From Magnetococcales bacterium (GTDB taxonomy: Bacteria > Pseudomonadota > Magnetococcia > Magnetococcales > UBA8363): 64,000 nt of DNA. The position numbers and the translations under genes are program-made. The notes under the pieces were generated by a model that was given only the letters and a program-made list of their open reading frames with translations, was not told where the DNA came from and did no database searches. Positions 13,749 through 32,310 of the stretch are shown here, in pieces. Where the stretch lies: the NCBI GenBank assembly GCA_002753515.1, contig PEAK01000018.1, positions 1 to 64,000 on the forward strand, read 5' to 3'. The first letter of the stretch is position 1, and each line of letters opens with the position of its first letter.

Positions 13749-15626
13749 CTACAGCCCCATCCCCATCTGAATATAACCGCAGGGACAGGCCTGATGACAC
13801 ACATGACACCCATTACAACGGGTATAGTCGGTATGCATCACTTTGCCCTGAGGACGTTTGAAATCACGCTCAATCGCCTCCCTGGGACAATAGATACGGC
13901 ATTGATCGCACACAAAGCACAATCCACAACTCATGCACCGTTTGGCTTCAGACAAGGCCTGCTCAAAGGGGATGGTCTGCGTTGTTTCCTTGAAGGTTGT
14001 AACCGCCTCGTCCACCGGAATCTGCTTTTCTTCATTCCGTGGCATCGCCGGGTAGAAACCCAAACGCATCTCCGTATGCTTGACTGGACGGGCCTTGTGA
14101 ACCGGATTCATGTTTTCGCCCATCAGAAACGCATGAATGGCCCGTGCCGCAAGACGTCCATGACCCACGGAGCGGGTGGAAATGCCCAAACCGATGACAT
14201 CACCTCCAGCAAAAACCCCCGGAGTCCCCGTGGTAAAGGTTTTGTCAATGTTCAACCATCCCGACTTATCGGCCAACCCTTCCATTCCCTTTTCCAACTC
14301 GGGCACCTGACCGATACCCATGATGATGGTGTCACAGGCAATGGTGAATTCAGATCCCTTGACTGGGACTGGACGCCGCCGTCCCGATTGATCCGGGGCC
14401 CCCAGTTCCATACGGATGCACTTGACACCCGTTGCCCGCCCACCTTCGGTGACAATTTCCACGGGAGCGGTCAACAATTCAAAATGAATCCCTTCGTGTT
14501 CCGCTTCCACCACGTCCTTGGCAATCGCCGGCATTTCATCCTTGGTCCGACGATACAACACGGTCACTTGGGTATACTTTGACACCCTGATGGCCGAACG
14601 TGCTGAATCCAGGGCAGTTTTTTCAATGGAAACGGTCTCTTCATCATGCAACGCTTTTTTGTCGGCTTCTTCCCAAGCCTGATCATAGGCTTTGGCATCC
14701 CCCGAAGCATCGGCGGCATCCAATTCCGCCTGTAACCGCAATGAAACACGTGCGGCGTCCATGGCACTGTCACCACCACCGATGACAATCACCTGGGAAC
14801 CGATTTCCACCTTGGCCCCGGAGTTGACCCGATTGAGGAAGCTGGCGGCAGTGAACACATTCGCGGAATTTTCCCCGGGAATGTTCATGACGCTTCCTTT
14901 GTGGGCACCCAGGCCCAAAAAGACGGCGTCAAATTGTTTCTTCAGGTCGTCGAAAGAAATATCCCGACCGATACGGGTATTGCACTTCAATTCAATACCC
15001 AGATCGAGGATGTTTTGTACTTCTGCATCAAGGATATCGTCCGGAAGACGATAGGAAGGAATGCCATACCTGAGCATGCCGCCGGTCTTCGCAAACGCTT
15101 CAAAGATGGTTACCTTGTGCCCTCTGCGTGCCAGTTGGTAAGCACAAGATAGCCCGGCCGGTCCAGACCCCACCACCGCAACTTTTTTGCCCGACACTTT
15201 GTCGGTCAATTTTTTATACTTCAACTTGCGGTTAAGACCATGGTCGCCAATAAACCGTTCCATGTTGTTGATGGCTACGGAACCATCCGGCAAGTGCTGC
15301 CGATTACATCCTGATTCACACGGATGCGGACAAATGCGCCCGTGGGTGGATGGCAGCGGATTTTTGTCGGTCAAGAGTTCCCATGCCTCATCCAAAGCGG
15401 CATCGTGACTCACTTTGCGCATTCCTGCCTGAGCAATGGTCGTCAGATAGCCACGAATATCCTCACTGCTGGGACATGCATCCCGGCAGGGAGGAATTCT
15501 TTGCACATAGGTGGGACATTTCCAACTAGTGCCATTACGAACAACAATTTCTTCAACAACACCACGCCCGAGCTTGGCTTCCAGATCCTCCCTGGAAATC
15601 TGTGTCAGTATAGTCGACTCTAGCAT
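13749..15626 (-). CDS. dsrL: DsrL: NAD(P)H-linked iron-sulfur flavoprotein
   Basis: A 625-residue protein related to the small subunit of glutamate synthase. It carries an N-terminal Cys-rich segment (CPTYVQRIPPCRDACP, about residues 38-53), FAD and NAD(P)H Rossmann motifs (VAVVGSGPAGLSCAYQLA and VIVIGGGDSAMDAAR), and a C-terminal ferredoxin domain with CMSCGLCFVCDQC and CNGCHVCHQACPCGY. This architecture is DsrL. In sulfur oxidisers it takes electrons from reverse-acting sulfite reductase DsrAB and passes them to NAD(P)+. The start ATG 15626 has AGGAA about nine bases upstream. It lies 41 bases after dsrB, so it is in the same operon. Confidence 0.92.
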   Translation of the reverse strand: MLESTILTQISREDLEAKLGRGVVEEIVVRNGTSWKCPTYVQRIPPCRDACPSSEDIRGYLTTIAQAGMRKVSHDAALDEAWELLTDKNPLPSTHGRICPHPCESGCNRQHLPDGSVAINNMERFIGDHGLNRKLKYKKLTDKVSGKKVAVVGSGPAGLSCAYQLARRGHKVTIFEAFAKTGGMLRYGIPSYRLPDDILDAEVQNILDLGIELKCNTRIGRDISFDDLKKQFDAVFLGLGAHKGSVMNIPGENSANVFTAASFLNRVNSGAKVEIGSQVIVIGGGDSAMDAARVSLRLQAELDAADASGDAKAYDQAWEEADKKALHDEETVSIEKTALDSARSAIRVSKYTQVTVLYRRTKDEMPAIAKDVVEAEHEGIHFELLTAPVEIVTEGGRATGVKCIRMELGAPDQSGRRRPVPVKGSEFTIACDTIIMGIGQVPELEKGMEGLADKSGWLNIDKTFTTGTPGVFAGGDVIGLGISTRSVGHGRLAARAIHAFLMGENMNPVHKARPVKHTEMRLGFYPAMPRNEEKQIPVDEAVTTFKETTQTIPFEQALSEAKRCMSCGLCFVCDQCRIYCPREAIERDFKRPQGKVMHTDYTRCNGCHVCHQACPCGYIQMGMGL

Positions 15627-15667
15627 TAAAGGATTCCTCCCGGAGTGAACAGGTTACCAAACTTTCA

Positions 15668-16741
15668 TCAGAGTCGGAGCATGGCCGATCTGTTGAGAGT
15701 AGAAAGGGCTTCCGGGCTATCATCGATATGATAGCGGGTAAACGGAAAGCCTGTCTTTTCAAAGAATCGTTGCCAACCGATCCTTTCGATCCACTCCCCA
15801 AGACGCTCCCAGGGCTTGCCACCTTCCTTATAGGCCTTCAGGATTATCTTGACTGCGGCAGAAACTTCGGGCCAGCGCGGGGGATTGTTAGGAATACCCC
15901 AGACTGCCAGTTTCATGAAGGTCGGTGCACTGCGGGCGTTGGACATCTTGCCACCGACCCAAATGGAAAGGGTGTCGGTTTGGGCATCCCGGATTTCCAT
16001 GCTGGGACATTGCCCGTGGCACGCGCCGCAATACATGCATTTTTCTTCCACCACTTCCACCGTTTCCACACCATCAACCACCGCTGGGCGGATAGCCGCA
16101 GCGGGGCAGATGGCAACCACCTTGGGCAACTCACAAATTTGCATGTTTTTGTGGTTGATGCGGGGTGGATGATGGTGTTGCACAATGATGGAGATGTCAC
16201 CGTGGCTGGCGCAATTGATCTGGCAGCACGACGAGGAAATATGGACCCGGTTGGGGAGTTCTTCGTGCTTGAAGTCGTGGATGAGATCATCCATCAACGC
16301 CTTCACCGAACCCGCTGCATCGGACCCCGGAAGGTTACAATGCAACCAACCTTGGGTATGGGAAATATTGGACACCGAAGGTCCGGTGCCACCCAGAGGC
16401 CAGCCCAAATCCTTCTCGACGGCTTGAATCAGGGGATCCAGGTTTTCTTTCTTGCCCACCAAAAACTCAATGTTCGACCGGGTGGTGAAACGCAGATGGC
16501 CTTCGCAATATTTGTCGGCGATCGCACACACCTTGCGAACCGTATCGGCACTCATGGTCCGGGGTGAACCAGCCCGGACGGTATAGAGCTTGTCACCATT
16601 TTCGGCTACGTGGACCAGTACGCCTGGGCGCAACCTTTCATGGTAGTCCCACTTGCCATAATTCTTGGCCATGAGTGGGTGCAAATACTTGGTGTAGTCG
16701 GGGGCGCCCTGGTCCCGGGGCGCCAACGTGGGTTGACTCAT
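15668..16741 (-). CDS. dsrB: Dissimilatory sulfite reductase beta subunit DsrB
   Basis: A 357-residue cytoplasmic subunit of the sirohaem sulfite reductase. Visible marks are KYLHPLMAKNYGKWDYHERL at the start, DKYCEGHLRFTTRSNIEF, the sirohaem/cluster-binding region SSSCCQINCASHGDI, and a ferredoxin insert CMYCGACHGQCP. Translation starts at ATG 16741 (MSQPTLAPRDQ); the open frame upstream is not coding in character. It forms the alpha2-beta2 enzyme with DsrA, encoded 55 bases upstream. In this context, with dsrL, it probably oxidises persulfide sulfur to sulfite. Confidence 0.95.
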   Translation of the reverse strand: MSQPTLAPRDQGAPDYTKYLHPLMAKNYGKWDYHERLRPGVLVHVAENGDKLYTVRAGSPRTMSADTVRKVCAIADKYCEGHLRFTTRSNIEFLVGKKENLDPLIQAVEKDLGWPLGGTGPSVSNISHTQGWLHCNLPGSDAAGSVKALMDDLIHDFKHEELPNRVHISSSCCQINCASHGDISIIVQHHHPPRINHKNMQICELPKVVAICPAAAIRPAVVDGVETVEVVEEKCMYCGACHGQCPSMEIRDAQTDTLSIWVGGKMSNARSAPTFMKLAVWGIPNNPPRWPEVSAAVKIILKAYKEGGKPWERLGEWIERIGWQRFFEKTGFPFTRYHIDDSPEALSTLNRSAMLRL

Positions 16742-16796
16742 AACGCTCTTGACTCCTTTATATTGAACCTTACCGTGTTGGCGACAGACGAGAACC

Positions 16797-18065
16797 CTAC
16801 AGGCTTTCCCGAGACTCCGATTCACGATTCCAAACGGGGGGATTTTGCACCCGTTCACCTTCAAATCTGCTTGGCCCCAGCTCTTCAAACTTGATGTACG
16901 ATGTGGTGCGGGGACGGCTGATCATCCGCGGATCAGGCTCGATCTCAACACCTTTGAGGAAAGTCAACATACCGATACGGTAGATGAATTCCCCGATCCG
17001 CTCATGGTCCATACCATTGTCATTCCAGAATTCCCACACCTTCTCGACAAAGTCGGTGAAATTGCTCCGATCCTCGTCGGTTTCAAGCTTCACGAACGGC
17101 ACCAGAACCGATCCCATGGTGTCACCGATCTTGAGGGTCCGCTTGCCGCCGACCAGGATGGTGGCCCCACGATCTTTACCGGGCTTGAGCGCCTTATGCA
17201 TGACATTGATACAGTGCATGCAACGCACGCAATCGCTGTTGTCCACAACCAATTCCTTGCCGCGAACCGACAAGCAGCGGGTGGGACACCGGGTGAGGAC
17301 GTTATCGATCAGGTACTCCATCCCCTTTTGTTCGATGAACTCGGCGACCTTGGCTTGGTTGACCTGCATGTCACCGCGCCAGGTACCGATGATGGGCATG
17401 TCGGAGCGAACGATGGCGTTGGAGCAATCGTTGGGACAGCCGGAAAGTTTAAATTTGAACTTGTAGACGAACTCGGGGCGGTGCAGATAGTGGATGAAGG
17501 TGTCCGTGATATGCTTGGTCATCTTCATGGTGTCGTAGCAGGCCATTTCGCAGCGGGCCTGGCCAACGCAGCACTGCAGGGTCCGCATGGCGGCACCGGA
17601 ACCGCCGATGTCCCAACCATTGCTCATCAGGTCTTCGGCGCATTGCAAGGAGCCGGCATCGTCAAAACCCAACAGGAGGACGTCACCCGACATGCCATGG
17701 AATTGCAGGATGCCGGCGCCATTCTTCTCGGCGATGTCGGCCAGATTGCGCAGGGCATCGGTGCTGTACACCCAACCCGGCGGTTCAATGACGCGCACGG
17801 TGTGGAAATTGGCCAAACCGGGATATTTGCTCGCTTTGTCGGACACCCGGGCGATGATGCCGCCACCGTAGCCGGGGGCATTGAGGATCTTGCCTTGCCA
17901 ATAATTCCATTTATTCTGATAGGATTCTTCCAATTGATTCAAAAGTTGCGCGATAACCGGACGCTTCTTGGAATATTCCTTCAGATCGGTGACAAAGCTT
18001 GGCCACGGACCCGACTCCAATTCATTCAGCATCGTTGTATTCAACGGCATTCTTTCAGTACTCAT
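16797..18065 (-). CDS. dsrA: Dissimilatory sulfite reductase alpha subunit DsrA
   Basis: This 422-residue protein is the first gene of the minus-strand dsrABL operon. GPWPSFVTDLKEYSKKRP near the N-terminus and GGSGAAMRTLQCCVGQARCE (residues about 153-172) are characteristic of DsrA. The four-cysteine sirohaem-cluster site is in CCVGQARCE plus SGCPNDCSN, and a ferredoxin domain has CPTRCLSV and CVRCMHC. The length matches the family. The ATG at 18065 follows GAGGAG. It binds the catalytic sirohaem with DsrB. Neither dsrEFH nor dsrC follows, unlike in classic purple-sulfur-bacterial clusters; these may lie elsewhere. Confidence 0.95.
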   Translation of the reverse strand: MSTERMPLNTTMLNELESGPWPSFVTDLKEYSKKRPVIAQLLNQLEESYQNKWNYWQGKILNAPGYGGGIIARVSDKASKYPGLANFHTVRVIEPPGWVYSTDALRNLADIAEKNGAGILQFHGMSGDVLLLGFDDAGSLQCAEDLMSNGWDIGGSGAAMRTLQCCVGQARCEMACYDTMKMTKHITDTFIHYLHRPEFVYKFKFKLSGCPNDCSNAIVRSDMPIIGTWRGDMQVNQAKVAEFIEQKGMEYLIDNVLTRCPTRCLSVRGKELVVDNSDCVRCMHCINVMHKALKPGKDRGATILVGGKRTLKIGDTMGSVLVPFVKLETDEDRSNFTDFVEKVWEFWNDNGMDHERIGEFIYRIGMLTFLKGVEIEPDPRMISRPRTTSYIKFEELGPSRFEGERVQNPPVWNRESESRESL

Positions 18066-19444: not shown

Positions 19445-19738
19445 AAGGTATCCGCTGAAAATACCGTTCCCCACCCCAAGGGACAACGTAAAAAAATGGT
19501 CGGTTCGTTGATTCCCCATTCCGCACCCGATCCCCATACCCGTGGAAGACACGGCCCGGGACTCACCCATTCCTCACTAAGAGGCAATAATTGCGCAAGG
19601 CCTTTAAAAGAATTATGATGCATTCCACCGCCGTATCCCATCCACCGGCAATCTTCCATGCCAAGCGGCATAGGACCCCATACTGAACACAATAGGGATG
19701 GAACACGCCACTATTGGCATTACAGGAGAGGAAAAAAC

Positions 19739-20212
19739 ATGATGATCAAAAAAATGGGACTTTTGGTAGTCTCCAGCTTATTCGTGTCCACACTCGCGAT
19801 GGCCGCTGCCCCCCAGGAAGATCAAGAAATTGACAAGCGTACCTGCCAAAAATGGGCGCAGGAAGATGGCATTGCCGCCGACAAAATGGAAGGCTACATC
19901 AGTAAGTGTATGGCGGAATTGGCTGGAACTGTAGACACCTATGGTGGTCAGGACGCGATCCCGGACAACGCCCCTCCGACTGGTGGTGCCCCGGCAGCCG
20001 GCAAACCCGCCGGTGCGGCAGCTCCAGCAGCGGCACCCGCAGCTCCAGCAGCCGGTGCCCCGGCAGCAGCCAAACCCGCCACCCCCGCAGCTCCGGCAGC
20101 AGCACCCGCAGCCCCGGCAGCGGCCAAACCCGCCACCCCCGCAGCCCCAGCGGCAGCTCCGGCAGCTCCAGCGGCAGCCAAACCAGACGCAGCCAAGCCA
20201 GACAAAAAATAG
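19739..20212 (+). CDS. Secreted or periplasmic protein with Ala/Pro-rich tail
   Basis: A 157-residue protein starting at ATG 19739 after a strong CAGGAGAGG site. Residues 1-23 form a signal peptide (KKMGLLVVSSLFVSTLAMAAA). A short folded part follows with two cysteines (RTCQKWAQEDGIAADKMEGYISKC, likely a disulfide hairpin), then a low-complexity tail of APAAAPAAPAAAKPATP repeats ending in AAKPDAAKPDKK. Such tails often span the periplasm or cell wall. No enzyme motif is visible. It is a single-gene transcript with its own terminator 24 bases after the stop. Confidence 0.85.
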   Translation: MMIKKMGLLVVSSLFVSTLAMAAAPQEDQEIDKRTCQKWAQEDGIAADKMEGYISKCMAELAGTVDTYGGQDAIPDNAPPTGGAPAAGKPAGAAAPAAAPAAPAAGAPAAAKPATPAAPAAAPAAPAAAKPATPAAPAAAPAAPAAAKPDAAKPDKK

Positions 20213-20666: not shown

Positions 20667-22556
20667 TTAAAACCGCATACCCATGCTTTGTGACATCAAC
20701 CACAGGTTGGCCGCGCTCATGGCGGCAATGAAGGACAGCATGGGAATGAGCCGCCAGCCCGTCAAACGTACCCCACCCGCCTGCAAACCCCATCCCCGAT
20801 GCCGCAAAATCACGACCGCCAACCCCACCCCCAAGGCCATGAGACCCGTCTGTGCCAGGAACAACACCTGTTCCCCTCCCCCACCTCCGGCCATACGCGC
20901 CGCCCTCTCCGCCGCACTCAATGCCGCCATTCCCGTCCCCAACGGATTGGCCAGCACCTCCCAAGCACCTCCCGTCTCACGATACAGATGATCCAGGTTA
21001 TGGGAAAGATGGTATACGAATGCCAACGGCAATGTCGAAAAGGGCAAGGTCACAAACAGACGACGGTAGCCCAACGCCTGCGGCATCAGCATGCGTGTCA
21101 CCCCGATAGCCAGGGCATACACCACCACCGGAAACAAAAAACCTCCCACCATGCCCAGGGTGAAACTGATGATGGGCTTGCCCGTTTCCCCGAGCCATTG
21201 CGCCAAACCCGCCATCCATGTACCCCAAATGGGCATCATGGTCACGCCATGAAAACTGGTGATCCCCAGCAATGCCAACATGAACCAGGCCCCATCCCAC
21301 ATGGGTCGCGCCTCAGCCAACGCCTCCGCTCCCGGAGGACGCAAACGCCAGGAAACATTGCCGTATGGACAACTCAAAGCACATTGGCCACACGAAATAC
21401 AAAAGGTATTTTGGGAAAAACGGCCAATCGTCAGATGGGTGGGACAGGGTTCAATCGTGGCTGATCCATTGTAACACTCCATAGTTGTGCAGTTGGTACA
21501 CAGATCCTGCTCCTGCGCCCGCACCCCAATGGGTGCCAAACGTGAGTAAAAGCCCAACGTCCGTCCCACTGGGCAAAAATAGCGGCAAAAGGCCTTCCGC
21601 TCAAACAACAACAAGGAAACCAAGGACAATATCACCATCAATAAAGCCATCAAGGCTGTTGCCTTGGGAATACCCGTGACACCAATACCCAATTCAAGCC
21701 AAGTCAACCCCATGAACATGACCAGTGCCGGCCAAACACTCCGTAACAGCCGTGGAACCTTCAGATTCAAACCTGGAGGCGGCATAACCCGCTGCCAAAG
21801 CCGCCGCCGCACCAACCAAGTTGCCAGGGTATCCCAGGGGCAAATGGCACACCAAGCCGTTCCGATAAAAAATACCGATACCACCACCAAAGGCCACCAC
21901 AGGTTCCAGACGAAAAAGGTGGCCAGATTGCGCTCCGGCAATGACGTACCCACCAATCCTGCGGTAACGACCACCAAAAAAACGAGCAGGGCAATCATTT
22001 TAAGACCTACCAGCGGCCAGGGGGAACGATTGAGCCAACGAACGACCCTGCCAAACAGGGGCATTCGTGCCAGATTGTACGTGGCTTGTGGACGTTCCTT
22101 GGGCGCTCCGGCCCATACACCCCAAAGCATCATGGCAACCATGATGGCCACAACACTCCAGACATAGACCATCGGCAAACCCGGATGCTGATGACCGCCC
22201 CCGGCACCATGCTCCCCATGTCCTGTTGTCGCATGACTCCCATGGTCGCCCTGCGATGTGCCATGTTCGTGCGCGCTCGGGACAGGTGCGACAATCCCGT
22301 GATTCTCATGTTCGGGCGCGCTTGGGACAGGTGCGACAATCCCATGATTTTCATGTTCGTGCGCGCTCGGGACAGGTGCGACAATCCCGTGATTTTCATG
22401 TTCGTGCGCGCTCGGGACAGGTGCGACAATCCCCTGACTTTCATATTCTTGCGCGCTCTGGGCAAAAGTACCGGGTGCCGTAACCATGGAAACCCATAAA
22501 ACAATCAATGCAATGAAACCAGTGCGTTTCCAGGAACTGCTTTGCGTGATGGTCAT
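20667..22556 (-). CDS. Membrane polyferredoxin (NosR/CcoG-like) with His-rich repeat N-terminus
   Basis: This 629-residue protein has a signal sequence, then a periplasmic stretch of four 15-residue repeats (EHENHGIVAPVPSAH) and a His-rich tail (GHGEHGAGGGHQH). About five to six membrane helices follow with cytoplasmic iron-sulfur sites: WCAICPWDT, CRYFCPVGR, CTNCTTMECYNG…CP and CISCGQCALSCP. The CxxxCP motifs are those of NosR, NapH and CcoG. CcoG is known to reduce Cu(II) to Cu(I). As last large gene of an RND metal-efflux operon, a copper-reducing or copper-sensing role is plausible but inferred. It starts 37 bases after the adaptor gene. Confidence 0.8.
   Translation of the reverse strand: MTITQSSSWKRTGFIALIVLWVSMVTAPGTFAQSAQEYESQGIVAPVPSAHEHENHGIVAPVPSAHEHENHGIVAPVPSAPEHENHGIVAPVPSAHEHGTSQGDHGSHATTGHGEHGAGGGHQHPGLPMVYVWSVVAIMVAMMLWGVWAGAPKERPQATYNLARMPLFGRVVRWLNRSPWPLVGLKMIALLVFLVVVTAGLVGTSLPERNLATFFVWNLWWPLVVVSVFFIGTAWCAICPWDTLATWLVRRRLWQRVMPPPGLNLKVPRLLRSVWPALVMFMGLTWLELGIGVTGIPKATALMALLMVILSLVSLLLFERKAFCRYFCPVGRTLGFYSRLAPIGVRAQEQDLCTNCTTMECYNGSATIEPCPTHLTIGRFSQNTFCISCGQCALSCPYGNVSWRLRPPGAEALAEARPMWDGAWFMLALLGITSFHGVTMMPIWGTWMAGLAQWLGETGKPIISFTLGMVGGFLFPVVVYALAIGVTRMLMPQALGYRRLFVTLPFSTLPLAFVYHLSHNLDHLYRETGGAWEVLANPLGTGMAALSAAERAARMAGGGGGEQVLFLAQTGLMALGVGLAVVILRHRGWGLQAGGVRLTGWRLIPMLSFIAAMSAANLWLMSQSMGMRF
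22257..22448 (-). repeat. 45-base tandem repeats coding for His-rich peptide units
   Basis: Four and a partial copies of a 45-base unit lie in frame in the polyferredoxin gene. The unit reads EHENHGIVAPVPSAH, and the first copy has drifted to EYESQGIVAPVPSAH. Near identity of the inner copies suggests recent expansion by slippage or recombination. The His and Glu residues could bind metal. Confidence 0.9.
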
Positions 22557-22593: not shown

Positions 22594-23694
22594 TCACTGG
22601 ATGGAACGACTCAGTAGGGAGCGTAGATTGGCATCCGCTGCAAACAAAGATCGCACCTGCACCACAACTTTTTCTCCCTCTTTCACTCCTTCCAATATCT
22701 CGATAAATCCATCGCCCTTATTCCCTGCCACAACCGAACGTGGTTCCAATACCCCGGCACCACGCTCCACCAGGACTATCTGGCGGGTACCGTGATCCAG
22801 GAGTGCGGAGTCGGGAATGGCAAGAACCATGGCTCCGGTAGTTGGCGCCGAAAGATGCACAACGGCATACAGAGCGGGCCGCAACAAACCATCAGGGTTG
22901 GCCAGTTCAATACGCACCTGAACCGTGCGGGTCTCAGCGGACAGCGTGGGATAAATCAAGGTCACTTTGCCGTGGAATGTCTTGTTGGGAATCGCCTTTA
23001 GAACAACTTCGGCGGGCACTCCTTCGCGTATCAAGCCCACATCCTGTTCGTACACATCCGCCACCACCCAAACGGTTGTCAAATCGGCAACACGATACAG
23101 CATCTCACCCGGAAGGACGCGCATCCCCTGAATGGCAGCCTTCTCCAAAATGATCCCGTTCACCGGGGAAATGACACTCATGGTCCGCCCAAATTGACGC
23201 GTGTTACGCAAGCGTTTGATCTGATTTTCGGAAATATCCCAGTTGCGCAAGCGCATCAACGCACTTTCAGTCAGCTCATGGGCCGTGGCCCGGGTCTCGG
23301 CATCGGCCCCGTGAAGCGACAGCTCGGACCTGGCCGCAGCCAAATATTCACTTTGCGTCAAAATCAACGCCGGGCTATAGACCTCCATCAACGATTGCCC
23401 TTTCTGCACCACCTGCCCGGTAGTGTTGGCATGGAGCTTTTCAATCCAGGCTTCATACTTCAGATTGATGATCTGGAGCCTGCGCTCATCCACCTGGACA
23501 GTGCCCACAGCCCGGATGGAACGGGCCAAGGATCGCCGAACGACGCCTTCGCTCTTGACCCCCCATTGTTGAATCTTGTCCACATCGATACGGATCAACC
23601 CATCCCCTTTATCAGCCACTTCAGCCGTCGCTGTATCAACCACCATCATGGCCAATACGCATGCCATCATGGAAACAAGCTTGGCGCACTTCAT
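22594..23694 (-). CDS. Periplasmic adaptor (membrane fusion protein) of an RND metal-efflux pump
   Basis: A 366-residue protein with a signal peptide (LVSMMACVLAMMVVDTATA). The HlyD/CusB-type order is seen: a barrel-sandwich half (SIRAVGTVQVDERRLQIINLKYEAWIEKLH), an alpha-hairpin region (SLMEVYSPALILTQSEYLAAARSE) and the second lipoyl half (SVISPVNGIILEKAAIQGMRVLPGEMLYRVADL). A beta-barrel domain follows. It would link the RND pump to the outer-membrane channel. Its start overlaps the end of the channel gene by four bases (ATGA). It is the second adaptor in this operon; the other is at 28534-30084. Confidence 0.9.
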   Translation of the reverse strand: MKCAKLVSMMACVLAMMVVDTATAEVADKGDGLIRIDVDKIQQWGVKSEGVVRRSLARSIRAVGTVQVDERRLQIINLKYEAWIEKLHANTTGQVVQKGQSLMEVYSPALILTQSEYLAAARSELSLHGADAETRATAHELTESALMRLRNWDISENQIKRLRNTRQFGRTMSVISPVNGIILEKAAIQGMRVLPGEMLYRVADLTTVWVVADVYEQDVGLIREGVPAEVVLKAIPNKTFHGKVTLIYPTLSAETRTVQVRIELANPDGLLRPALYAVVHLSAPTTGAMVLAIPDSALLDHGTRQIVLVERGAGVLEPRSVVAGNKGDGFIEILEGVKEGEKVVVQVRSLFAADANLRSLLSRSIQ

Positions 23695-24989
23695 AAATCA
23701 CCCCCGATCAACCGTTCCACTTCTGCCAGACGGATTTGGGCCTCAAATTGAGCCTTGAGCCAATCGATTTGAAATTTTTTCAGTCTTTGGGCTGCATCCA
23801 ATACCGCAACCGACTCCGCAGAACCGGTTTGGTAACTCTTCAAGGCGGATTGCAACGCCATGCGCGCCTGCGGCATCAACGTATTCTCGGTCACTTGCGC
23901 CACTTCCCGAGCCTCTTCCAGGCTTAACAGATTTTCTTTGAGAGTCGATGCGATACGCACGTGTTCCGCTTGCAATTGTGCCTGCACCGCCCCGTTTCGG
24001 GCGACGGCCTCCCGTTGCCGCGCCCGGTACCCGTCCCATGGTACGGGCAGGGTCAATTCCACCTGGGCTTCAAAGCCATCCTTTTCCTCGGGGTTGCGGC
24101 GTTGCACCAACCCCACCCCGAGGGTGATATCGGGATACCACCCTTTCTCAACCAGCCGTTGATTCTCATCGACAGCATCGGCCCGTGCCGCAACCATGCT
24201 CTGCACGGGATTGTCCCTCAACGCACGTTCCAACAATTGGGCATAATCCAACATTTCTGCGGCTGGCAGCGGACGCAATTCAGGATGTTCGACAATGGGC
24301 GCATCCGGCGCACGATTGACCAAGGCATTCAATCGTGCGCGAATGCGACTGCGCTCTTTGCCCAGGCGCACCTTGTCGACTTCCAACGCCCCCCGTTCCG
24401 CTTCCGCCGTTGTCACTTCCGATTGCATAGCCCTGTTTTGCGCATACCGAAATTGCGCCATGCGAACCAAAGTGCGCATGATCTGGATCCATTCCTCCGT
24501 CTGATCCATGGTGAGGTGGACCCGATGGTAGTCGGCATAGGCCGTTTTGATCCGCAGGGCGATGTCCGCCTCGACATCCGCCAGCTTGCCCAACGCCTCG
24601 CGATTTTCCGCCTCGGCAATGGTCCGTTGTGAATCCCGTTTTCCCCACCAGGGCAACTCTTGTTGCATGAGAAATTTTTCCGTCGCCACCCGTCCGGGCA
24701 AACCTTCACGGTTTTTGCTCACATCCTCCAGGGTCATCTGCAATTTGGGATTTGGCAACACCCCCGCCCCTGCCACCCGGGCAGCGGCCGCATCGGCGTC
24801 CAAACGCGAGGCCAACAACTCTGGATTCATTTTTTTGGCTAGTACGAGGAGATCGGCCACCGAAGCGCCCACCACCTGCTCATGCGCATGCGACTCCGCA
24901 GCTTCCGCAACACCAGACAACCCGAGTCCCGTCACCAAAAACAAGACCATCCCGAATAAGTGACAACCTGATCTCTCAGGACACAGCAT
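23691..24989 (-). CDS. TolC/CusC-family outer-membrane efflux channel
   Basis: A 432-residue protein with a cleavable signal (VLFLVTGLGLSGVAEA) and the duplicated helical-barrel pattern of outer-membrane efflux proteins. Motifs include NPKLQMTLEDV near the start, QQELPWWGKR, and the internal second repeat GWYPDITLGVGLVQRRNPEEKDGFEAQVELTLPVPWDG. The LPWWGK and TLPVP pieces are typical of metal-efflux (CusC/CzcC) members. It lies between the 126-residue periplasmic protein (19-base gap) and the second adaptor (4-base overlap), so it is co-transcribed with both. Confidence 0.9.
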   Translation of the reverse strand: MLCPERSGCHLFGMVLFLVTGLGLSGVAEAAESHAHEQVVGASVADLLVLAKKMNPELLASRLDADAAAARVAGAGVLPNPKLQMTLEDVSKNREGLPGRVATEKFLMQQELPWWGKRDSQRTIAEAENREALGKLADVEADIALRIKTAYADYHRVHLTMDQTEEWIQIMRTLVRMAQFRYAQNRAMQSEVTTAEAERGALEVDKVRLGKERSRIRARLNALVNRAPDAPIVEHPELRPLPAAEMLDYAQLLERALRDNPVQSMVAARADAVDENQRLVEKGWYPDITLGVGLVQRRNPEEKDGFEAQVELTLPVPWDGYRARQREAVARNGAVQAQLQAEHVRIASTLKENLLSLEEAREVAQVTENTLMPQARMALQSALKSYQTGSAESVAVLDAAQRLKKFQIDWLKAQFEAQIRLAEVERLIGGDL

Positions 24990-25008: not shown

Positions 25009-25389
25009 TCAATGTTGCGCTGGCAAACGGGCGGAAATCGGTTTTGCCAAACCGGAAACCGTGATCACCGCCGAAAAGGCATCACCAACCGGCGTCTGGG
25101 TCGTACCGGAAAGCAGGTTTCCATCCGCCCCCTGTAAGGCAACCTCCAGTTTCTTCCCCCCCGCCAAAATGACAACTTTAGCCGAAGCCCCTGCGACCGC
25201 TATCGGCTTATCATCGTGGTCGGTCACATACAGATCGACCTTGGTGTCCTTGGCCACCAATTCCAGACGACCACCCTCGGCTTCCACCATGCGTCCCCCA
25301 TGTTGGGGTGCTAGCGAACCATGCGCCCAAGCGGACCAGGATAGAAGCAATCCCACCAACGCCAATATTATTTTTCCAGTATGAAGCAT
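25009..25389 (-). CDS. Small periplasmic protein of the metal-efflux operon
   Basis: This 126-residue protein has a signal peptide (IILALVGLLLSWSAWA) and then AHGSLAPQHGGRMVEAEGGRLELVAKD, a His-containing start to a predicted all-beta domain (VDLYVTDHDDKPIAVAGASAKVV). Similar small proteins accompany Co/Zn/Cd and Cu RND operons, and the GGRMVEA motif is common among them. It may be a periplasmic metal chaperone. The catalytic or binding residues are not established. It sits 30 bases after the RND pump gene. Confidence 0.75.
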   Translation of the reverse strand: MLHTGKIILALVGLLLSWSAWAHGSLAPQHGGRMVEAEGGRLELVAKDTKVDLYVTDHDDKPIAVAGASAKVVILAGGKKLEVALQGADGNLLSGTTQTPVGDAFSAVITVSGLAKPISARLPAQH

Positions 25390-25419: not shown

Positions 25420-28400
25420 TCACGACTTCTCACCCATGTTCCATGACTTGGACCGATCACCCACCCGCAGAAACATGACGGGAGTCACCACGGTATCCAG
25501 CAAGGTGGATGACAACAAACCACCAAAGATCACCACCGCCACCGGGTGCAGGATCTCCTTGCCCGCTGCCCCGGCATCGACAATCAATGGAATCAGGGCC
25601 AGGGCCGCCACCAGGGCCGTCATCAGCACCGGAGTCAATCGTTCCAACGAGCCCCGCACCACCATATCGGGTCCAAACGGCTCGCCTTCCACCCGCATGA
25701 GGTGGAGATAATGGGTTACCTTGAGGATGCCGTTCCTGGCCGCGATGCCGGTCAGGGTGATGAAACCGACCAAACTGGCTACCGACAATGGGGTTTGCGT
25801 CAGCCACAAAGCCAAAACGCTGCCGACCAGGGCCATGGGGATATTGGCCATGATGATCATCGTCAGGACCGACGAACGGAAATGACTGTAAAGGACCAGA
25901 AAAATACCGGCCAAAGAAATAAGGGAGAGCAAAGCCATGGTGCGGGTCGCCTCTTGCTGACTGCGAAACTGTCCCTCGAACGAAATGCGATAGCCCGACG
26001 GCAGGGTCACCCGGGCCACACGCCCCTGGATATCGTTGGCTACCGCAGAGAGGTCACGCCCCTGGGTATTGGCCAATACCACGATACGCCGTTGCCTGTC
26101 GTCCCGGTTGATCATGTTGGGACCGGTGGTTTCCACCACCTCGGCCACCAAATCCAGGGGAATTTTGCCAGCCGGGGTGTCGATAAGGATTGTGTGAAAG
26201 TCCCCGGTTTCAGCACGCCATTCCTCGGCCAAACGCAACACCACGTCATAGCTGCGTTGCCCCTCAAGCACCTGGGACACCACCTTACCGCTCAAAGCCG
26301 TTTGCAAAATCCCGGTCAACTGATTCAAGGAGAGACCATATTTAAGGGCTTCGCGCCGGTCCAACCGGATTTGCAACTGCGGAATGAGGACCTGTTTTTC
26401 CACCTGCAGGTCAGTCACCCCGGGCACAGTCGCCATGTGCTGCCTGACTTCTTCCGCTTTGGCGCGCAGCTCATTCAAATCGTCACCAAAAATTTTGACG
26501 GCAATCTCCGCCCTGACCCCGGACAACAAATGATCCAACCGATGGGAAATCGGCTGCCCGACATTGATACTGACCCCGGGGATCATCCCCAGGTTGCCAC
26601 GCAACTCCCCGAGAATCACCTCACGCTTGCGTCCGGAAACACTGAGATCCACGTCTATTTCGGAAAAATGCACCCCTTCGGCATGTTCATCCAATTCCGC
26701 ACGCCCGGTGCGACGTCCCGTGGAAATCACTTCCGGCGTTCTATGCAACAAACCCTCGGCAATGGTACCAATGCGATTGGACTCCTCCAGGGATGTCCCC
26801 GGGGCCATGATCACGCTGACCGTCACCGTCCCCTCATTGAAGGTGGGAAGGAACGTCCGCCCGAGCAGGGGAACCGAAAGCGCCGCCGCAACCACCAATG
26901 CCAGGGTGGTAGCGATCAAGAACCGGGCATGCCCAAAGGACCAGTACAAAATGCGGCGATCCATCGCCTTGAGGCGTCGCACCAACCAGGAATCACCGTG
27001 GGTCATGATTTTAATACGCGGCAGCAACAAAAAACAAAGCACGGGTGTCACTGTCAGAGAGACCAGGAGTGAGGTCAGAATGGAGACGATATAAGCGATG
27101 CCCAACGGGGCGAAAAGTCGCCCTTCAATGCCCGACAAGGCGAAAACGGGTACAAAAACCAGCAGGACGATGATGGTGGCATAGACAATGGCATTTCTGA
27201 CCTCGCTGGAGGCCTGCCAAACCACATCCAGGGTTGGACGGGGGGCTGCGGAGGACGCATTTTCCCGCAACCGCCGAAACACATTTTCTACATCGACCAC
27301 GGCATCATCCACCAGTTCACCAATGGCCACCGCCAATCCACCCAGGGTCATGGTGTTGATGGATAATCCAAACCATTGAAAAACAAGAGCCGTCACCACC
27401 AAGGAGAGCGGAATGGCCGTCAGACTGATGAAAGTCGTCCGCACGTTCATGAGGAACAGGAACAAGATCACCGCCACCAAGACAGCCCCATCACGCAACG
27501 CCTCCTCGACATTGGCGATGGCACGTTCGATAAAATCGGCTTGTTTGAAAAGAATCGGATCCACTTTCACATCATCGGGCAACGTGCGCTGGATGGTCGC
27601 CAAAACCCCCTCCAGACGCCTCGTCAAGGTCACGGTGTCGGCCCCGGGCTGTTTTTGCACCGCCAGGATGACCGCCGCCTGACCATTGATGCTGGCATCA
27701 CCCCTCTTGACCCCGGCACCGAACCGTACATCAGCCACTTGACCCAACGTAATCGCTTCGCCTTTGTTGACGGCCACCACCGTTTGTTGCAAATCTTCCA
27801 AATCGGTCGTCTGACCCAGATTGCGAATGAGAAACTCCCTCCCGTGCTGCGACAGGAAGCCGCCCGTACTGTTTTTGGCAAAACTGTTGAGGGATTGCTC
27901 CAAGGCTTCAAATGAGAGCCCCAAGGCGATCATGCGCGTCGGATCGACAAGCACCTGGTATTGTTTCACCTCGCCACCGATGGGAATCACCTGGGCCACC
28001 CCGGCCATGCCCAACAATTGCGGACGCAACGTCCAATCGGCGATGGAACGCAACACCATGGGCGAGGTCGCACCCTTGTCGCTTCGGAGGCCGATCAGCA
28101 TGATTTCACCCATGAGAGAACTCACCGGACCCATGACCGGCACCACGTCACGCGGCAAAAATTCAACGGTGGTCGCCAATTTTTCCGCAACCAACTGCCG
28201 GTTGCGATACACATCGGTTCCCCATGAAAACTCAACGAATACAATGGACAGTCCGACACCGGAATTACTGCGCAGACGGGAAACCCCCGGCATGCCATTC
28301 AACACCGACTCAATACGCATGGTCACCAGGGATTCCACCTCCTCGGGTGCCAACCCGGGGGCTTCGGTCATGATGGTCACCGTGGGACGATTCAGGTCAG

Positions 28401-28527
28401 GAAAAATATCAACCGGCAAACCCGCAACCACCAAACCGCCGTAAACCAACAATAAGATCGACGCCGCAACGACAAACAAGCGTTGCTGCAAAGAAAACCG
28501 AATGATCGCGTCCAAGAGACCGGGCAT
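25420..28527 (-). CDS. Heavy-metal efflux RND pump (CusA/CzcA family)
   Basis: A 1035-residue inner-membrane pump of the heavy-metal RND family, with the usual 12 helices and two large periplasmic loops. It drives metal export across the envelope using the proton gradient. LPVDIFPDLNRPTVTIMTEAPGLAPEEVE near the N-terminus and LPSGYRISFEGQF in the second half are family hallmarks. The substrate-class motif in helix 4 (residues 403-415) reads GELVDDAVVDVEN. This differs from the CzcA form (VDGAVVMVEN) and the CusA form (VDAAIVMIEN), so the metal cannot be read from it. Copper or silver is inferred from the neighbouring CusR-like box and polyferredoxin. Confidence 0.92.
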   Translation of the reverse strand: MPGLLDAIIRFSLQQRLFVVAASILLLVYGGLVVAGLPVDIFPDLNRPTVTIMTEAPGLAPEEVESLVTMRIESVLNGMPGVSRLRSNSGVGLSIVFVEFSWGTDVYRNRQLVAEKLATTVEFLPRDVVPVMGPVSSLMGEIMLIGLRSDKGATSPMVLRSIADWTLRPQLLGMAGVAQVIPIGGEVKQYQVLVDPTRMIALGLSFEALEQSLNSFAKNSTGGFLSQHGREFLIRNLGQTTDLEDLQQTVVAVNKGEAITLGQVADVRFGAGVKRGDASINGQAAVILAVQKQPGADTVTLTRRLEGVLATIQRTLPDDVKVDPILFKQADFIERAIANVEEALRDGAVLVAVILFLFLMNVRTTFISLTAIPLSLVVTALVFQWFGLSINTMTLGGLAVAIGELVDDAVVDVENVFRRLRENASSAAPRPTLDVVWQASSEVRNAIVYATIIVLLVFVPVFALSGIEGRLFAPLGIAYIVSILTSLLVSLTVTPVLCFLLLPRIKIMTHGDSWLVRRLKAMDRRILYWSFGHARFLIATTLALVVAAALSVPLLGRTFLPTFNEGTVTVSVIMAPGTSLEESNRIGTIAEGLLHRTPEVISTGRRTGRAELDEHAEGVHFSEIDVDLSVSGRKREVILGELRGNLGMIPGVSINVGQPISHRLDHLLSGVRAEIAVKIFGDDLNELRAKAEEVRQHMATVPGVTDLQVEKQVLIPQLQIRLDRREALKYGLSLNQLTGILQTALSGKVVSQVLEGQRSYDVVLRLAEEWRAETGDFHTILIDTPAGKIPLDLVAEVVETTGPNMINRDDRQRRIVVLANTQGRDLSAVANDIQGRVARVTLPSGYRISFEGQFRSQQEATRTMALLSLISLAGIFLVLYSHFRSSVLTMIIMANIPMALVGSVLALWLTQTPLSVASLVGFITLTGIAARNGILKVTHYLHLMRVEGEPFGPDMVVRGSLERLTPVLMTALVAALALIPLIVDAGAAGKEILHPVAVVIFGGLLSSTLLDTVVTPVMFLRVGDRSKSWNMGEKS

Positions 28528-28533
28528 AACTGG

Positions 28534-30084
28534 TCACCGCATGGCATTGAGCTGGTTGTGACCCTGGACCACAATTTTTTCAGCAGGTCCAACCCCCTGC
28601 AACACTTCCACCCATTCAGCCGTTTTCCGTCCCAGGGCCACCGGACGACTGACGAACCTTTCCGGAGCCGTTTTGACCCAAACCAAGGGGATCCCCCCTT
28701 GTTCAAGGAGCGCCACCCGTGGAATCGCAACGCTAAACAATTCCGCACCGGTATGGGCATACACATCCATGGGCATTCCAACTTTGACCGGTCCACTGTT
28801 GTCACCCAAGGCGAATTGCAGGTGCAAACCTTGATTTTCCGGATTCACCTTGGGACTGATACCCATCAAAACGAGTGGAAACTGTTTTCCCGGAATCTGC
28901 CGCGTCACCGCCGTTCCGCCGATGATCCGCTCCGCCACGGAAATATCGTACAAAACCGCTTCAATCCACAGGTGCGCGGGATCAATGATTTCCGCCAACA
29001 CATCGTTTTGCGTCACCACGTCTCCCGGAACAATGTGGACATCGGTCATTTGCCCGTCGATGGGGGCCAGGACCATTTCCCGGCCAACCGAGGATTCCAT
29101 CTGCTCCCCTTTCAACAAGGATTGACGCTGCCCCGCCTTCTCTCCGAGTGACAACAACGGATCCAGAACCGCCAATGGTTGCCCCCGTTTGATCCATTGT
29201 CCCGACCGGGGCGGCGGAAACAACGGATCATAACCAATGCGGGAGGGTAATTGCGGATGGATGCGCACGTGAAAAGAGGGATCGGCTATCACCCGTCCCA
29301 CCAGGCGAATGGTCTGGATCACTTCACGGCTCGTTGCCGGCGCAGTCCGTACATCCAACAAAAATTGACTCGACTTGGGTAAGGCAACCTCACGGCCCGA
29401 CCCGGGCACAACCATTGATGGTTGCTGCGATGGCGCTTCGTGATCCTCACCGCCATGGGCATGGAGATGACCTGCCGACGCCATGAGCAGCAACCCGACC
29501 AACGTCGCAACCTTCTTTTTCCGTCTTAACAACATGATCATGCAGATGACGACCACGAAAACCACGCCCACCGGAGTGAAAAAATGCTGATACTTCGACT
29601 CCGGGGACCCCGTGGGGGAGGCTGATGGATGGTTGTGGGACGGCACGGCGATCAGGAGCAAGTCGGAACCATCGGCATGGGTCACGGTAATGGTCAACGT
29701 AACCGCCTCCTGCAAAGACAACATGCGTTCCAAACGATACACCCCCGCCACAGGCGTTGGTTTCCATGTGTCCGTCCAGCCCGGATCGCCCGTCGCCTCC
29801 ACTTCGACCGTCGCCCGGGCCAGAGGGGCATTGGTGACCCCATCGGAAAGATAAAGCCACGTCAATGGGCCTTCCGTGGGAACAACCACCCCTTCAAATC
29901 GATCCCCCTGGGCCCCATACCCCAGGCCAGAGGAAACACCTTGCTGCTGTATCACCTTGGCAGCACCATGATCCCCGGCACCATGATCCTCACCACCATG
30001 CCCCCAAGCCAAGCCAGTCGGAAATCCGACCAAACCCAGCATCACCAGGAACAAGGTGACAAATGACATTGCTTTGTTTTCCAT
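28534..30084 (-). CDS. CusB-type periplasmic adaptor fused to a His-rich membrane domain
   Basis: This 516-residue protein is two modules. Residues 1-200 have a signal peptide, His-rich metal-binding stretches (GHGGEDHGAGDHG), a beta domain (TWLYLSDGVTNAPLARATVEVEA), a membrane helix (TPVGVVFVVVICMIMLL) and a positively charged turn (RRKKK). A second hydrophobic segment ends in HLHAHGGEDHE. Residues 210-516 are a CusB-like adaptor (FLLDVRTAPATSREVIQTIRLVGRV; VLAPIDGQMTDVHIVPGDVV). The second hydrophobic segment looks like the old signal peptide of the adaptor, so a gene fusion is likely. It is the first gene of the operon, divergent from the regulator. Confidence 0.85.
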   Translation of the reverse strand: MENKAMSFVTLFLVMLGLVGFPTGLAWGHGGEDHGAGDHGAAKVIQQQGVSSGLGYGAQGDRFEGVVVPTEGPLTWLYLSDGVTNAPLARATVEVEATGDPGWTDTWKPTPVAGVYRLERMLSLQEAVTLTITVTHADGSDLLLIAVPSHNHPSASPTGSPESKYQHFFTPVGVVFVVVICMIMLLRRKKKVATLVGLLLMASAGHLHAHGGEDHEAPSQQPSMVVPGSGREVALPKSSQFLLDVRTAPATSREVIQTIRLVGRVIADPSFHVRIHPQLPSRIGYDPLFPPPRSGQWIKRGQPLAVLDPLLSLGEKAGQRQSLLKGEQMESSVGREMVLAPIDGQMTDVHIVPGDVVTQNDVLAEIIDPAHLWIEAVLYDISVAERIIGGTAVTRQIPGKQFPLVLMGISPKVNPENQGLHLQFALGDNSGPVKVGMPMDVYAHTGAELFSVAIPRVALLEQGGIPLVWVKTAPERFVSRPVALGRKTAEWVEVLQGVGPAEKIVVQGHNQLNAMR

Positions 30085-30196: not shown

Positions 30197-30916
30197 GTGG
30201 ACAAACAACCAAGCATTCTGGTGGTGGAAGATAACCGGGAAATCAAGGAACTGGTTGTCCGATATCTGAATGAACACGGTATGATCGCCACAGGAGTGGC
30301 CAATGCCCGTGCCATGCGGGCAATACTGGAAAAGCAATCCATCGATCTCGTCATACTGGATGTCATGCTGCCTGGCGAAGACGGCTTGTCCGTTTGCCGT
30401 AAACTGCGGGAACACACCAGCATCCCGGTCATCATGTTGACCGCCTTGGGCGAACACAGCGACCGGGTCGTCGGTTTGGAGATGGGGGCCGATGATTACA
30501 TCAGCAAACCGTTCGATCCCCGCGAATTACTGGCCCGCATCAAGGCAGTTCTGCGGCGTTGCCACAATCATGACCAACGCGCAACCCCCACCATGGGTTC
30601 GCGGATGCACTTTGCCAACTGGATATTACACCAGGATCGACGAGAACTGGTCAACAGCGAAGGGTTGGTGGAACCTTTGAGTTCCGGAGAGTTTGATTTG
30701 CTTCTGGCCTTCCTCAGTCACCCCGGCAAGGTACTCAGTCGAGAGCGGCTCCTGGACCTGATCCATGGTTCCCGCGTCGAAAAATTCGACCGCAGTATCG
30801 ATACGCAAATCATGCGCTTGCGCCGCAAAATTGAAGCCAACCCCAAAGATCCCCGGATCATCAAAACGATTTGGGGAGGCGGGTACCTGTTCTCAGCCGA
30901 TGTCCACTCGCAATGA
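30197..30916 (+). CDS. OmpR/CusR-family response regulator
   Basis: A 239-residue regulator with a receiver domain (ILVVEDNREIKELV; phosphorylated Asp55 in LVILDVMLPGEDG; Lys in DYISKPFDPRELLARI). A C-terminal winged-helix DNA-binding domain follows (ELLLAFLSHPGKVLSRERLLD… then DRSIDTQIMRLRRKIE and TIWGGGYLF). The start is GTG 30197. It overlaps the kinase gene by four bases. The divergent metal-efflux operon and the CusR-like box between them point to metal-responsive control. Confidence 0.93.
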   Translation: MDKQPSILVVEDNREIKELVVRYLNEHGMIATGVANARAMRAILEKQSIDLVILDVMLPGEDGLSVCRKLREHTSIPVIMLTALGEHSDRVVGLEMGADDYISKPFDPRELLARIKAVLRRCHNHDQRATPTMGSRMHFANWILHQDRRELVNSEGLVEPLSSGEFDLLLAFLSHPGKVLSRERLLDLIHGSRVEKFDRSIDTQIMRLRRKIEANPKDPRIIKTIWGGGYLFSADVHSQ

Positions 30917-32310
30917 GGCCCTTGTTTTCCATCAGTTTGGCGGGACGAACACTGGTCATTTTACTGGTTGGCCTGACTTTTTCCCATATCCTGAGCATCC
31001 TGGTATTCACCAGCGAAAAATTGGAGCCTGCGGTACTCACCAATGAAGAGGAACTGCTGGCACGGATGGCCGTCATTACGCGGTTGCTCCTGGAAACACC
31101 GGCATCCCTGCACGAGACGGTCTTGTCCGCCATCAATCGCCATGACCTGCATGGTCAGCTCATTCCCGCATCGGGACCGCGCCCCAATCCATCCCCGGAA
31201 CAAAACAATGAACACCTGCGACAACGCCTGGAAACCCTGCTGCATGCCCCCCTGGCCCACGTTGCGGCGGTCAACGCCACTCTGCCCGATTGGAACCACC
31301 ACCACGGATCGTTCCACCGCTTTCTGTTCCATCTTGAAATGGACATTATCCGGTTGATGCACGATACCGTCATGGAACGAGAATTACATGCCTGGATCGA
31401 TCTGCCCGGGGAAAACCGACTCCTACTGGAAACACGCCTGGCGGCCAATCATGTCCCTTTGTTTCGCCACGCCACCCTGTCGGTAATCATCATGACGGGA
31501 GCCACCTTGGTCTTTGCCCTGATCATTGCGGGCTATATGACCCACCCCCTGAAACGCATCGTCGCCGCAGCCGACACCATAGGCCAGGATCGTTCCATCG
31601 TTCAACTCCCCGAGAACGGACCATCGGAAGTCGTTGCCGTTGCCCGGGCCTTCAATCGCATGAATCGCCGACTTCGCGAATTCGTCGAAGAGCGGCTACG
31701 GATGATCGCCGCCATTTCCCACGACCTGCGCACCCCATTGACCAAACTCAAACTGATGGCCGAATTTATTGACGACGAAACCACGCGCAAACAAATGAAA
31801 GCCACCCTGGATGAAATGGCCTTCATGCTTTCATCCACCCTGACGTTTGCCCGGGACAGCATGAATAGCGAAGCCAAACAACCCGTCAACATGAACAGCC
31901 TCCTCTCCGCCATCTGTGCCGATATGGTCGATGCCGGACACCAGGTTGTCTTCGTCGAAGCCGACAAACAAACCTGTTCGTGTCGCCCCCTGGCCATGAA
32001 ACGGGCCTTGACGAACCTCATCCATAATGCGGTACAGTACGGGGGGGCGGCCCAAGTTTCGTTACAGGACTCAGGGAAAAAATTGGTCGTTGCCATCCGC
32101 GATCCCGGACCCGGTATCCCCAAGGAAGAGTGGGACCATGTTTTCAAACCATTTCTCCGCCTGGAACCTTCCCGAAGCCCCGATACCGGAGGAGTGGGAC
32201 TCGGTCTCGCCATCGCGGATGCGGTCATTCGCGATCACCAGGGCTCTATCCGATTCAGCTTCCCGGAAGGGGGCGGTTTTATGGCTTGTGTAGAACTGAA
32301 AAAACTCTAA
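30913..32310 (+). CDS. Sensor histidine kinase, partner of the OmpR-type regulator
   Basis: A 465-residue membrane kinase starting at ATG 30913 (overlap with the regulator stop). It has two membrane helices (about 10-32 and 195-215) enclosing a ~160-residue periplasmic sensor with several His clusters (NHHHGSFHRFLFH), which would suit metal binding. A HAMP linker, the phospho-accepting His270 in AAISHDLRTPL and an ATPase domain follow (NLIHNAVQYG, VAIRDPGPGI, GGVGLGLAIADAV). The paired regulator and divergent RND operon suggest it senses periplasmic copper or silver. Confidence 0.92.
   Translation: MRPLFSISLAGRTLVILLVGLTFSHILSILVFTSEKLEPAVLTNEEELLARMAVITRLLLETPASLHETVLSAINRHDLHGQLIPASGPRPNPSPEQNNEHLRQRLETLLHAPLAHVAAVNATLPDWNHHHGSFHRFLFHLEMDIIRLMHDTVMERELHAWIDLPGENRLLLETRLAANHVPLFRHATLSVIIMTGATLVFALIIAGYMTHPLKRIVAAADTIGQDRSIVQLPENGPSEVVAVARAFNRMNRRLREFVEERLRMIAAISHDLRTPLTKLKLMAEFIDDETTRKQMKATLDEMAFMLSSTLTFARDSMNSEAKQPVNMNSLLSAICADMVDAGHQVVFVEADKQTCSCRPLAMKRALTNLIHNAVQYGGAAQVSLQDSGKKLVVAIRDPGPGIPKEEWDHVFKPFLRLEPSRSPDTGGVGLGLAIADAVIRDHQGSIRFSFPEGGGFMACVELKKL

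Follow-up and report, generated by a model that had tools for sequence, protein, structure and literature searches.

A polyferredoxin with a histidine-rich arm encoded behind the adaptor gene of a copper-linked RND operon in Magnetococcales

The copper efflux systems CusCFBA and CopBAC are encoded by operons that combine an RND pump and its adaptor with a small exported protein and a two-component system. In Synechocystis, mutation of copBAC makes cells sensitive to copper (PMC4335983). No polyferredoxin gene belongs to the cus operon of E. coli and none is listed next to the Synechocystis pump. One polyferredoxin with a proposed role in copper chemistry is CcoG, a [4Fe-4S] membrane protein that reduces Cu(II) and whose loss raises copper sensitivity (reviewed in PMC7558416). 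Oxidation of Cu(I) has been proposed for CopG, which contributes to anaerobic resistance (PMC7558416). Another polyferredoxin, FtrD, belongs to the ferrous iron uptake system FtrABCD. Here we describe a polyferredoxin gene from a 64,000-nucleotide stretch of a Magnetococcales genome (the window). Its operon has the composition of the cus and cop operons but, unlike them, encodes two adaptors (and, in sister genomes, two pumps) together with the polyferredoxin.

The polyferredoxin gene and its predicted topology

The polyferredoxin open reading frame (20667-22556, minus strand) codes for 629 amino acids comprising a signal peptide, a His-rich arm, ten predicted transmembrane (TM) helices and two [4Fe-4S] motifs. 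PF12801 (Fer4_5) exceeds its Pfam cut-off and is the sole Pfam domain seen. The gene starts 37 nt past the stop of a CusB-like adaptor gene (mfp2, 22594-23694) on the same strand, and a scan of this gap found no terminator-like site. A sequence-only reading of this DNA had put the gene within an RND operon, directly behind the pump's adaptor; both the open reading frame and this placement were confirmed. Because the operon context is kept in six further genomes, it is not due to chance.

We predicted the topology of the protein from hydropathy and the positive-inside rule; an AlphaFold2 model made with six sequences had a pLDDT of 39 and was discarded. In the prediction, the arm and residues H436, M440, H516, H519, H523 and M625 lie outside, and all four Cys-rich elements lie inside. 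Two of these elements are membrane motifs on the minus strand, C236xxC239P240 at the predicted cytoplasmic end of a TM helix (21837-21851) and C324xxxC328P329 on the predicted cytoplasmic side (21570-21587). Hence one of the CxxxCP sites claimed earlier has that spacing, whereas the other membrane motif is CxxCP. The remaining two are the [4Fe-4S] ferredoxin motifs, C353/C356/C361/C371 and C386/C389/C392/C396 (21369-21500, minus strand), which are cytoplasmic by the positive-inside rule. All 12 motif cysteines are invariant in an alignment of 30 full-length homologues.

Two further invariant motifs, both on the minus strand, are predicted to lie at periplasmic ends of TM helices: H436-G437-x-x-M440 (21237-21251), a candidate haem or copper ligand, and H516-x-x-H519-N520-x-x-H523-x3-E527 (20976-21011). 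Across the 30 homologues H436, M440, H516, H519 and H523 never vary, and M625 is nearly invariant. The long His-rich arm noticed in the earlier reading is indeed present, spanning residues 33-128 (22173-22460, minus strand), and falls on the periplasmic side of the predicted topology. Of its roughly 96 residues 16 are His, whereas Lys and Arg do not occur. The underlying DNA is a tandem repeat of 45 bp (22262-22458, minus strand; 4.4 copies, 92% match). A relative at 97% identity (locus L020) is 45 residues shorter, so that the copy number differs among close relatives and arm length varies quickly.

Relationship to other polyferredoxins

Of the likeness to NosR and CcoG that had been proposed, the two [4Fe-4S] motifs and the membrane Cys-Pro motifs expected of CcoG are present, but the resemblance to CcoG is weak, and the curated models do not support membership in either family. 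The CcoG model (TIGR02745, cut-off 316.7 bits) gave no match at E 0.1, and a genuine CcoG, encoded on contig C34 of the same genome, scores 489.7 bits to it; we therefore rejected an identity with CcoG. NosR was rejected at 18.3 bits against a 1000-bit cut-off, the match spanning only 39 residues, and NapH/MauN at 38.1 bits against a 213-bit cut-off, the protein sharing with these families the NapH superfamily signature. In the other direction, an HMM of the polyferredoxin family gave 222 bits for a Deinococcus protein, 92 for a haloarchaeal protein, 76 for an FtrD-like protein next to an FTR1 permease, 21 for a NapH-like protein and 10 for the genome's CcoG, making FtrD the best of the named families compared. 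A phmmer search of the PDB with the polyferredoxin found no convincing relative (best E 0.03).

Because the NapH, NosR and CcoG models are far under their cut-offs or silent, and given the family-HMM scores, sequence comparison places the polyferredoxin in an unnamed family of its own within the NapH superfamily, nearer FtrD than CcoG. It shares with CcoG (RdxA/FixG) a membrane location, CxxxCP-type motifs and two [4Fe-4S] clusters, but has no C-terminal Ig domain and instead carries the N-terminal arm and extra C-terminal TM helices with conserved His and Met. The label 'CcoG-type' is thus a functional analogy only. FtrD is likewise encoded with a metal transporter and has a core of comparable length; it differs in that the transporter is an FTR1 uptake permease rather than an RND exporter, in having no arm, and in an identity of 27% over only about 222 residues.

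Members of the family without an arm occur in Magnetococcales and other Pseudomonadota. They are 43-51% identical to the polyferredoxin, and their gene clusters also encode a NapA-like molybdoenzyme, ferredoxins of NapG/NapH type and a small exported protein. In one such cluster (L077, 606-8879) the arm-less polyferredoxin is accompanied by the NapA-like enzyme, a diheme cytochrome, three ferredoxins (two NapG-like, one NapH-like) and a small exported protein (HHVMGRPSYKLNEDS...) with no Pfam match. The genome of the window itself has two further paralogues. In the first (L005, 8058-10781, 907 aa) three N-terminal cytochrome c domains are fused to the polyferredoxin core; the second (L006, 8555-10840) has a different N-terminal domain (GPGRPLRVEMGYC...), and its gene lies divergently to one for a Zn/Cd-type P1B ATPase. 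A domain resembling that of the second paralogue is encoded by a separate gene at L028.

The His/Met site and the clusters are conserved just as well in the relatives that lack a copper context, so only the arm is clade-specific: in the family tree it is present in the copper-linked clade and missing from the Nap-type members. Since members adjoin NapA-like enzymes or bear cytochrome c domains, the polyferredoxin core is a general electron conduit that was recruited to copper, with the arm-bearing clade as its copper-linked branch.

The main non-copper rival follows from these relatives. The polyferredoxin could serve a periplasmic redox enzyme as a general conduit and sit in the copper operon for co-regulation only, without acting on copper. 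This is what the arm-less homologues beside NapA-like enzymes, the paralogue fused to cytochrome c and the identity of core residues across members would suggest. However, the window operon has no gene for a redox enzyme, the arm is confined to the copper-linked clade, and the gene joined the operon at two different positions. We regard such a role as unlikely, if still to be reckoned with.

The operon and its copper link

The window operon runs in the order mfp1, RND pump, 126-aa protein, TolC, mfp2 and polyferredoxin, all on the minus strand; upstream, an OmpR/EnvZ-type regulator pair is encoded divergently. Its members are a response regulator (30197-30916, plus strand) and, completing the two-component system, a sensor histidine kinase (30871-32310, plus strand). 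The adaptor gene mfp1 (28534-30084) extends to 30435 as a mechanical open reading frame; because this would overlap the regulator, translation more likely starts near 30084. The pump (25420-28527) is followed by the gene for the small exported protein (25009-25389), that for a TolC-family outer membrane channel (23691-24989), and mfp2, whose product fits CusB (1.9e-33) much better than ZneB (2.2e-18) and whose gene lies directly before CusA in sister genomes. No redox enzyme, P1B ATPase, FTR1, FtrA or FtrB gene was found in the operon, and a PADLOC check for an anti-phage role was negative. Downstream on the same strand lies a dissimilatory sulfite reductase gene set (13749-18065), with dsrA at 16797-18065 (494 bits) and adjoining dsrB-like and DsrL-like flavoprotein genes named by eye; the interval from the dsr genes to the polyferredoxin gene holds a gene (19658-20212) for an exported protein whose repeat tail is rich in Ala, Pro and Lys.

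The pump belongs to the HME-RND CusA/CzcA family (TIGR00914, 784.2 bits against a cut-off of 701.45). The sequence-only reading had taken it for a CusA-type Cu(I) pump, which is not supported: it has Ser, Phe and His at the positions of E. coli CusA M573, M623 and M672. As the methionine triad is missing, CusA-type Cu(I) export should not be assumed for this pump. Its identity is 43.5% to Synechocystis CopA, 29.6% to E. coli CusA and 32.1% to CzcA, and a tree of only 11 rows with long branches places it beside Synechocystis CopA and away from CusA, SilA and CzcA, with support of 100/99. Of the characterised pumps in the comparison, CopA of the CopBAC system appears to be the closest relative with experimental work behind it. 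The gene for the 126-aa protein matches in position the small gene after Synechocystis CopA, and its product shares 41% identity with the N-terminal portion of a fusion to cytochrome c that is encoded beside the same pump in Magnetospirillum XM-1. That fusion gene (L087, 12162-12884) follows the pump and is itself followed by genes for an HD-type phosphohydrolase and CopG; a fragment of an HD gene also precedes the polyferredoxin in L021.

The window pump by itself does not establish copper as the metal, but sister operons also connect the polyferredoxin to it. In L021 and L023 a true CusA gene lies between mfp2 and the polyferredoxin, and both proteins have all three Cu(I)-binding methionines (the L021 protein gives 1233 bits to E. 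coli CusA). In L022 a 73-residue C-terminal remnant (8014-8226) is all that is left of CusA, and this true CusA was not found in the window genome. With the remnant as an apparent intermediate, the comparison shows what looks like a stepwise loss of CusA from the operon. A CopG/DUF411 gene stands directly before the polyferredoxin, after CusA in L023 and after the remnant in L022, where its product matches the CopG structure 6WIS at 2.9e-37; CopG is absent from the window genome. CopG is a redox-active copper protein encoded beside the polyferredoxin, but is a soluble, thioredoxin-like protein of the periplasm.

Arm-clade polyferredoxins were found in 13 genomes and are in the operon in 7 of them, as the last gene in six and the first in one. 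The gene-first case (L064) branches apart from the other six on the tree, which suggests that the gene joined the operon at both ends, on two separate branches. The pump is present in 11 of the 13 arm-clade genomes compared with 8 of 35 genomes without the clade (Fisher p = 1.7e-4, uncorrected for relatedness). The gene-neighbourhood survey that the sequence-only reading had called for thus finds a recurrent polyferredoxin-pump operon and a clade that co-occurs with the pump. In one further genome (G036) the polyferredoxin adjoins a related regulator pair, and another (G022) was assigned to the clade by its sequence, its contig being too short to give context. Several arm-bearing homologues are encoded at a distance from the pump, in two cases in genomes that show no pump at all. 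Because some contigs end at the polyferredoxin gene, linked cases may be more numerous than counted; most genomes compared are MAGs, and absences hold for the collections searched.

The double-pump island also exists without the polyferredoxin, in further Magnetococcales genomes (for example L099 and L100) and in Magnetospirillum XM-1. A plasmid collection yielded only distant polyferredoxin relatives; in the four of their regions that were inspected, none adjoined an RND pump. No annotated polyferredoxin was present in eight related-pump regions (six with a window-type pump, Synechocystis CopA and Azospirillum CusA), the plasmid gene tables being incomplete, and a wider search of the order of G149 found no new polyferredoxin contexts. 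Given CusA and CopG in the sister operons, the CopA-like pump, the two operon positions and the co-occurrence with the pump, the copper link of the polyferredoxin is well supported, and the claim that it is tied to a copper RND operon stands.

A possible periplasmic route to Cu(I)

We suggest, at somewhat less than even confidence, that the polyferredoxin is a membrane electron conduit that was recruited to the copper-efflux operon and reduces periplasmic Cu(II) to Cu(I) for export. Electrons from a donor in the cytoplasm, or from one linked to quinone, would enter the two predicted cytoplasmic [4Fe-4S] clusters and cross the membrane to the periplasmic His/Met site. Copper collected by the His-rich arm would be reduced at that site, and the resulting Cu(I) taken up by CusB/CusA-type export machinery. 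With CusA gone from the window genome, the reaction there would supply the CopA-like pump and the CusB-like adaptor left as an orphan. Three observations speak against this reading: the His/Met site and clusters are conserved to the same degree in relatives outside any copper context, several arm-bearing homologues are not linked to the pump, and the window pump has no Cu(I) methionine triad. Copper as the substrate, the outward flow of electrons and the dependence of export on the reaction are features that we infer. Ferredoxin-type clusters are usually low in potential, too low to accept electrons from Cu(I), and this, together with the precedent of CcoG, argues for the outward direction.

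The main copper rival reverses this direction. The polyferredoxin would remove electrons from the periplasm during oxidation of Cu(I) to Cu(II), for instance with CopG when oxygen is too scarce for an oxygen-dependent copper oxidase. The CopG genes beside the polyferredoxin in two genomes fit such an electron sink, as does the cytochrome c that in Magnetospirillum XM-1 and Peteryoungia adjoins the related pump; the usual potential of the clusters speaks against it, and the window genome is without CopG. We consider it distinctly unlikely. Reduction of Cu(II) on the cytoplasmic side, at the CxxCP and CxxxCP motifs, would resemble CcoG, its product going to a P1B ATPase or to the assembly of oxidases and not to the RND pump. 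Both motifs are cytoplasmic in the predicted topology, one paralogue is divergent from a P1B ATPase, and in CcoG itself two copper sites accompany the two clusters (PMC7558416). Yet the genome has its separate true CcoG, the arm and His/Met site are predicted to be periplasmic, and the operon has no ATPase, so we give this reading little weight. Iron or another metal as the redox partner, with copper incidental, is favoured by the family-HMM score of the FtrD-like protein, above those of NapH and CcoG, but is very improbable in an operon without FTR1, FtrA or FtrB whose neighbours with an assignable metal are copper genes.

Returning to outward reduction of Cu(II), a search of the literature for a polyferredoxin described in a copper RND operon found none; one paper that came up (PMC10304115) was rejected as chance wording. 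The arrangement seems to be undescribed. More tentatively, the protein may be a dedicated cupric reductase of an RND operon that faces the periplasm, is distinct from CcoG, gathers copper with an expandable His-rich arm and hands Cu(I) from its His/Met site directly to CusB/CusA. CusA binds Cu(I), and how bacteria supply it with periplasmic Cu(I) has been little studied. A reductase inside an efflux operon would, if true, join redox conversion and export as one regulated unit.
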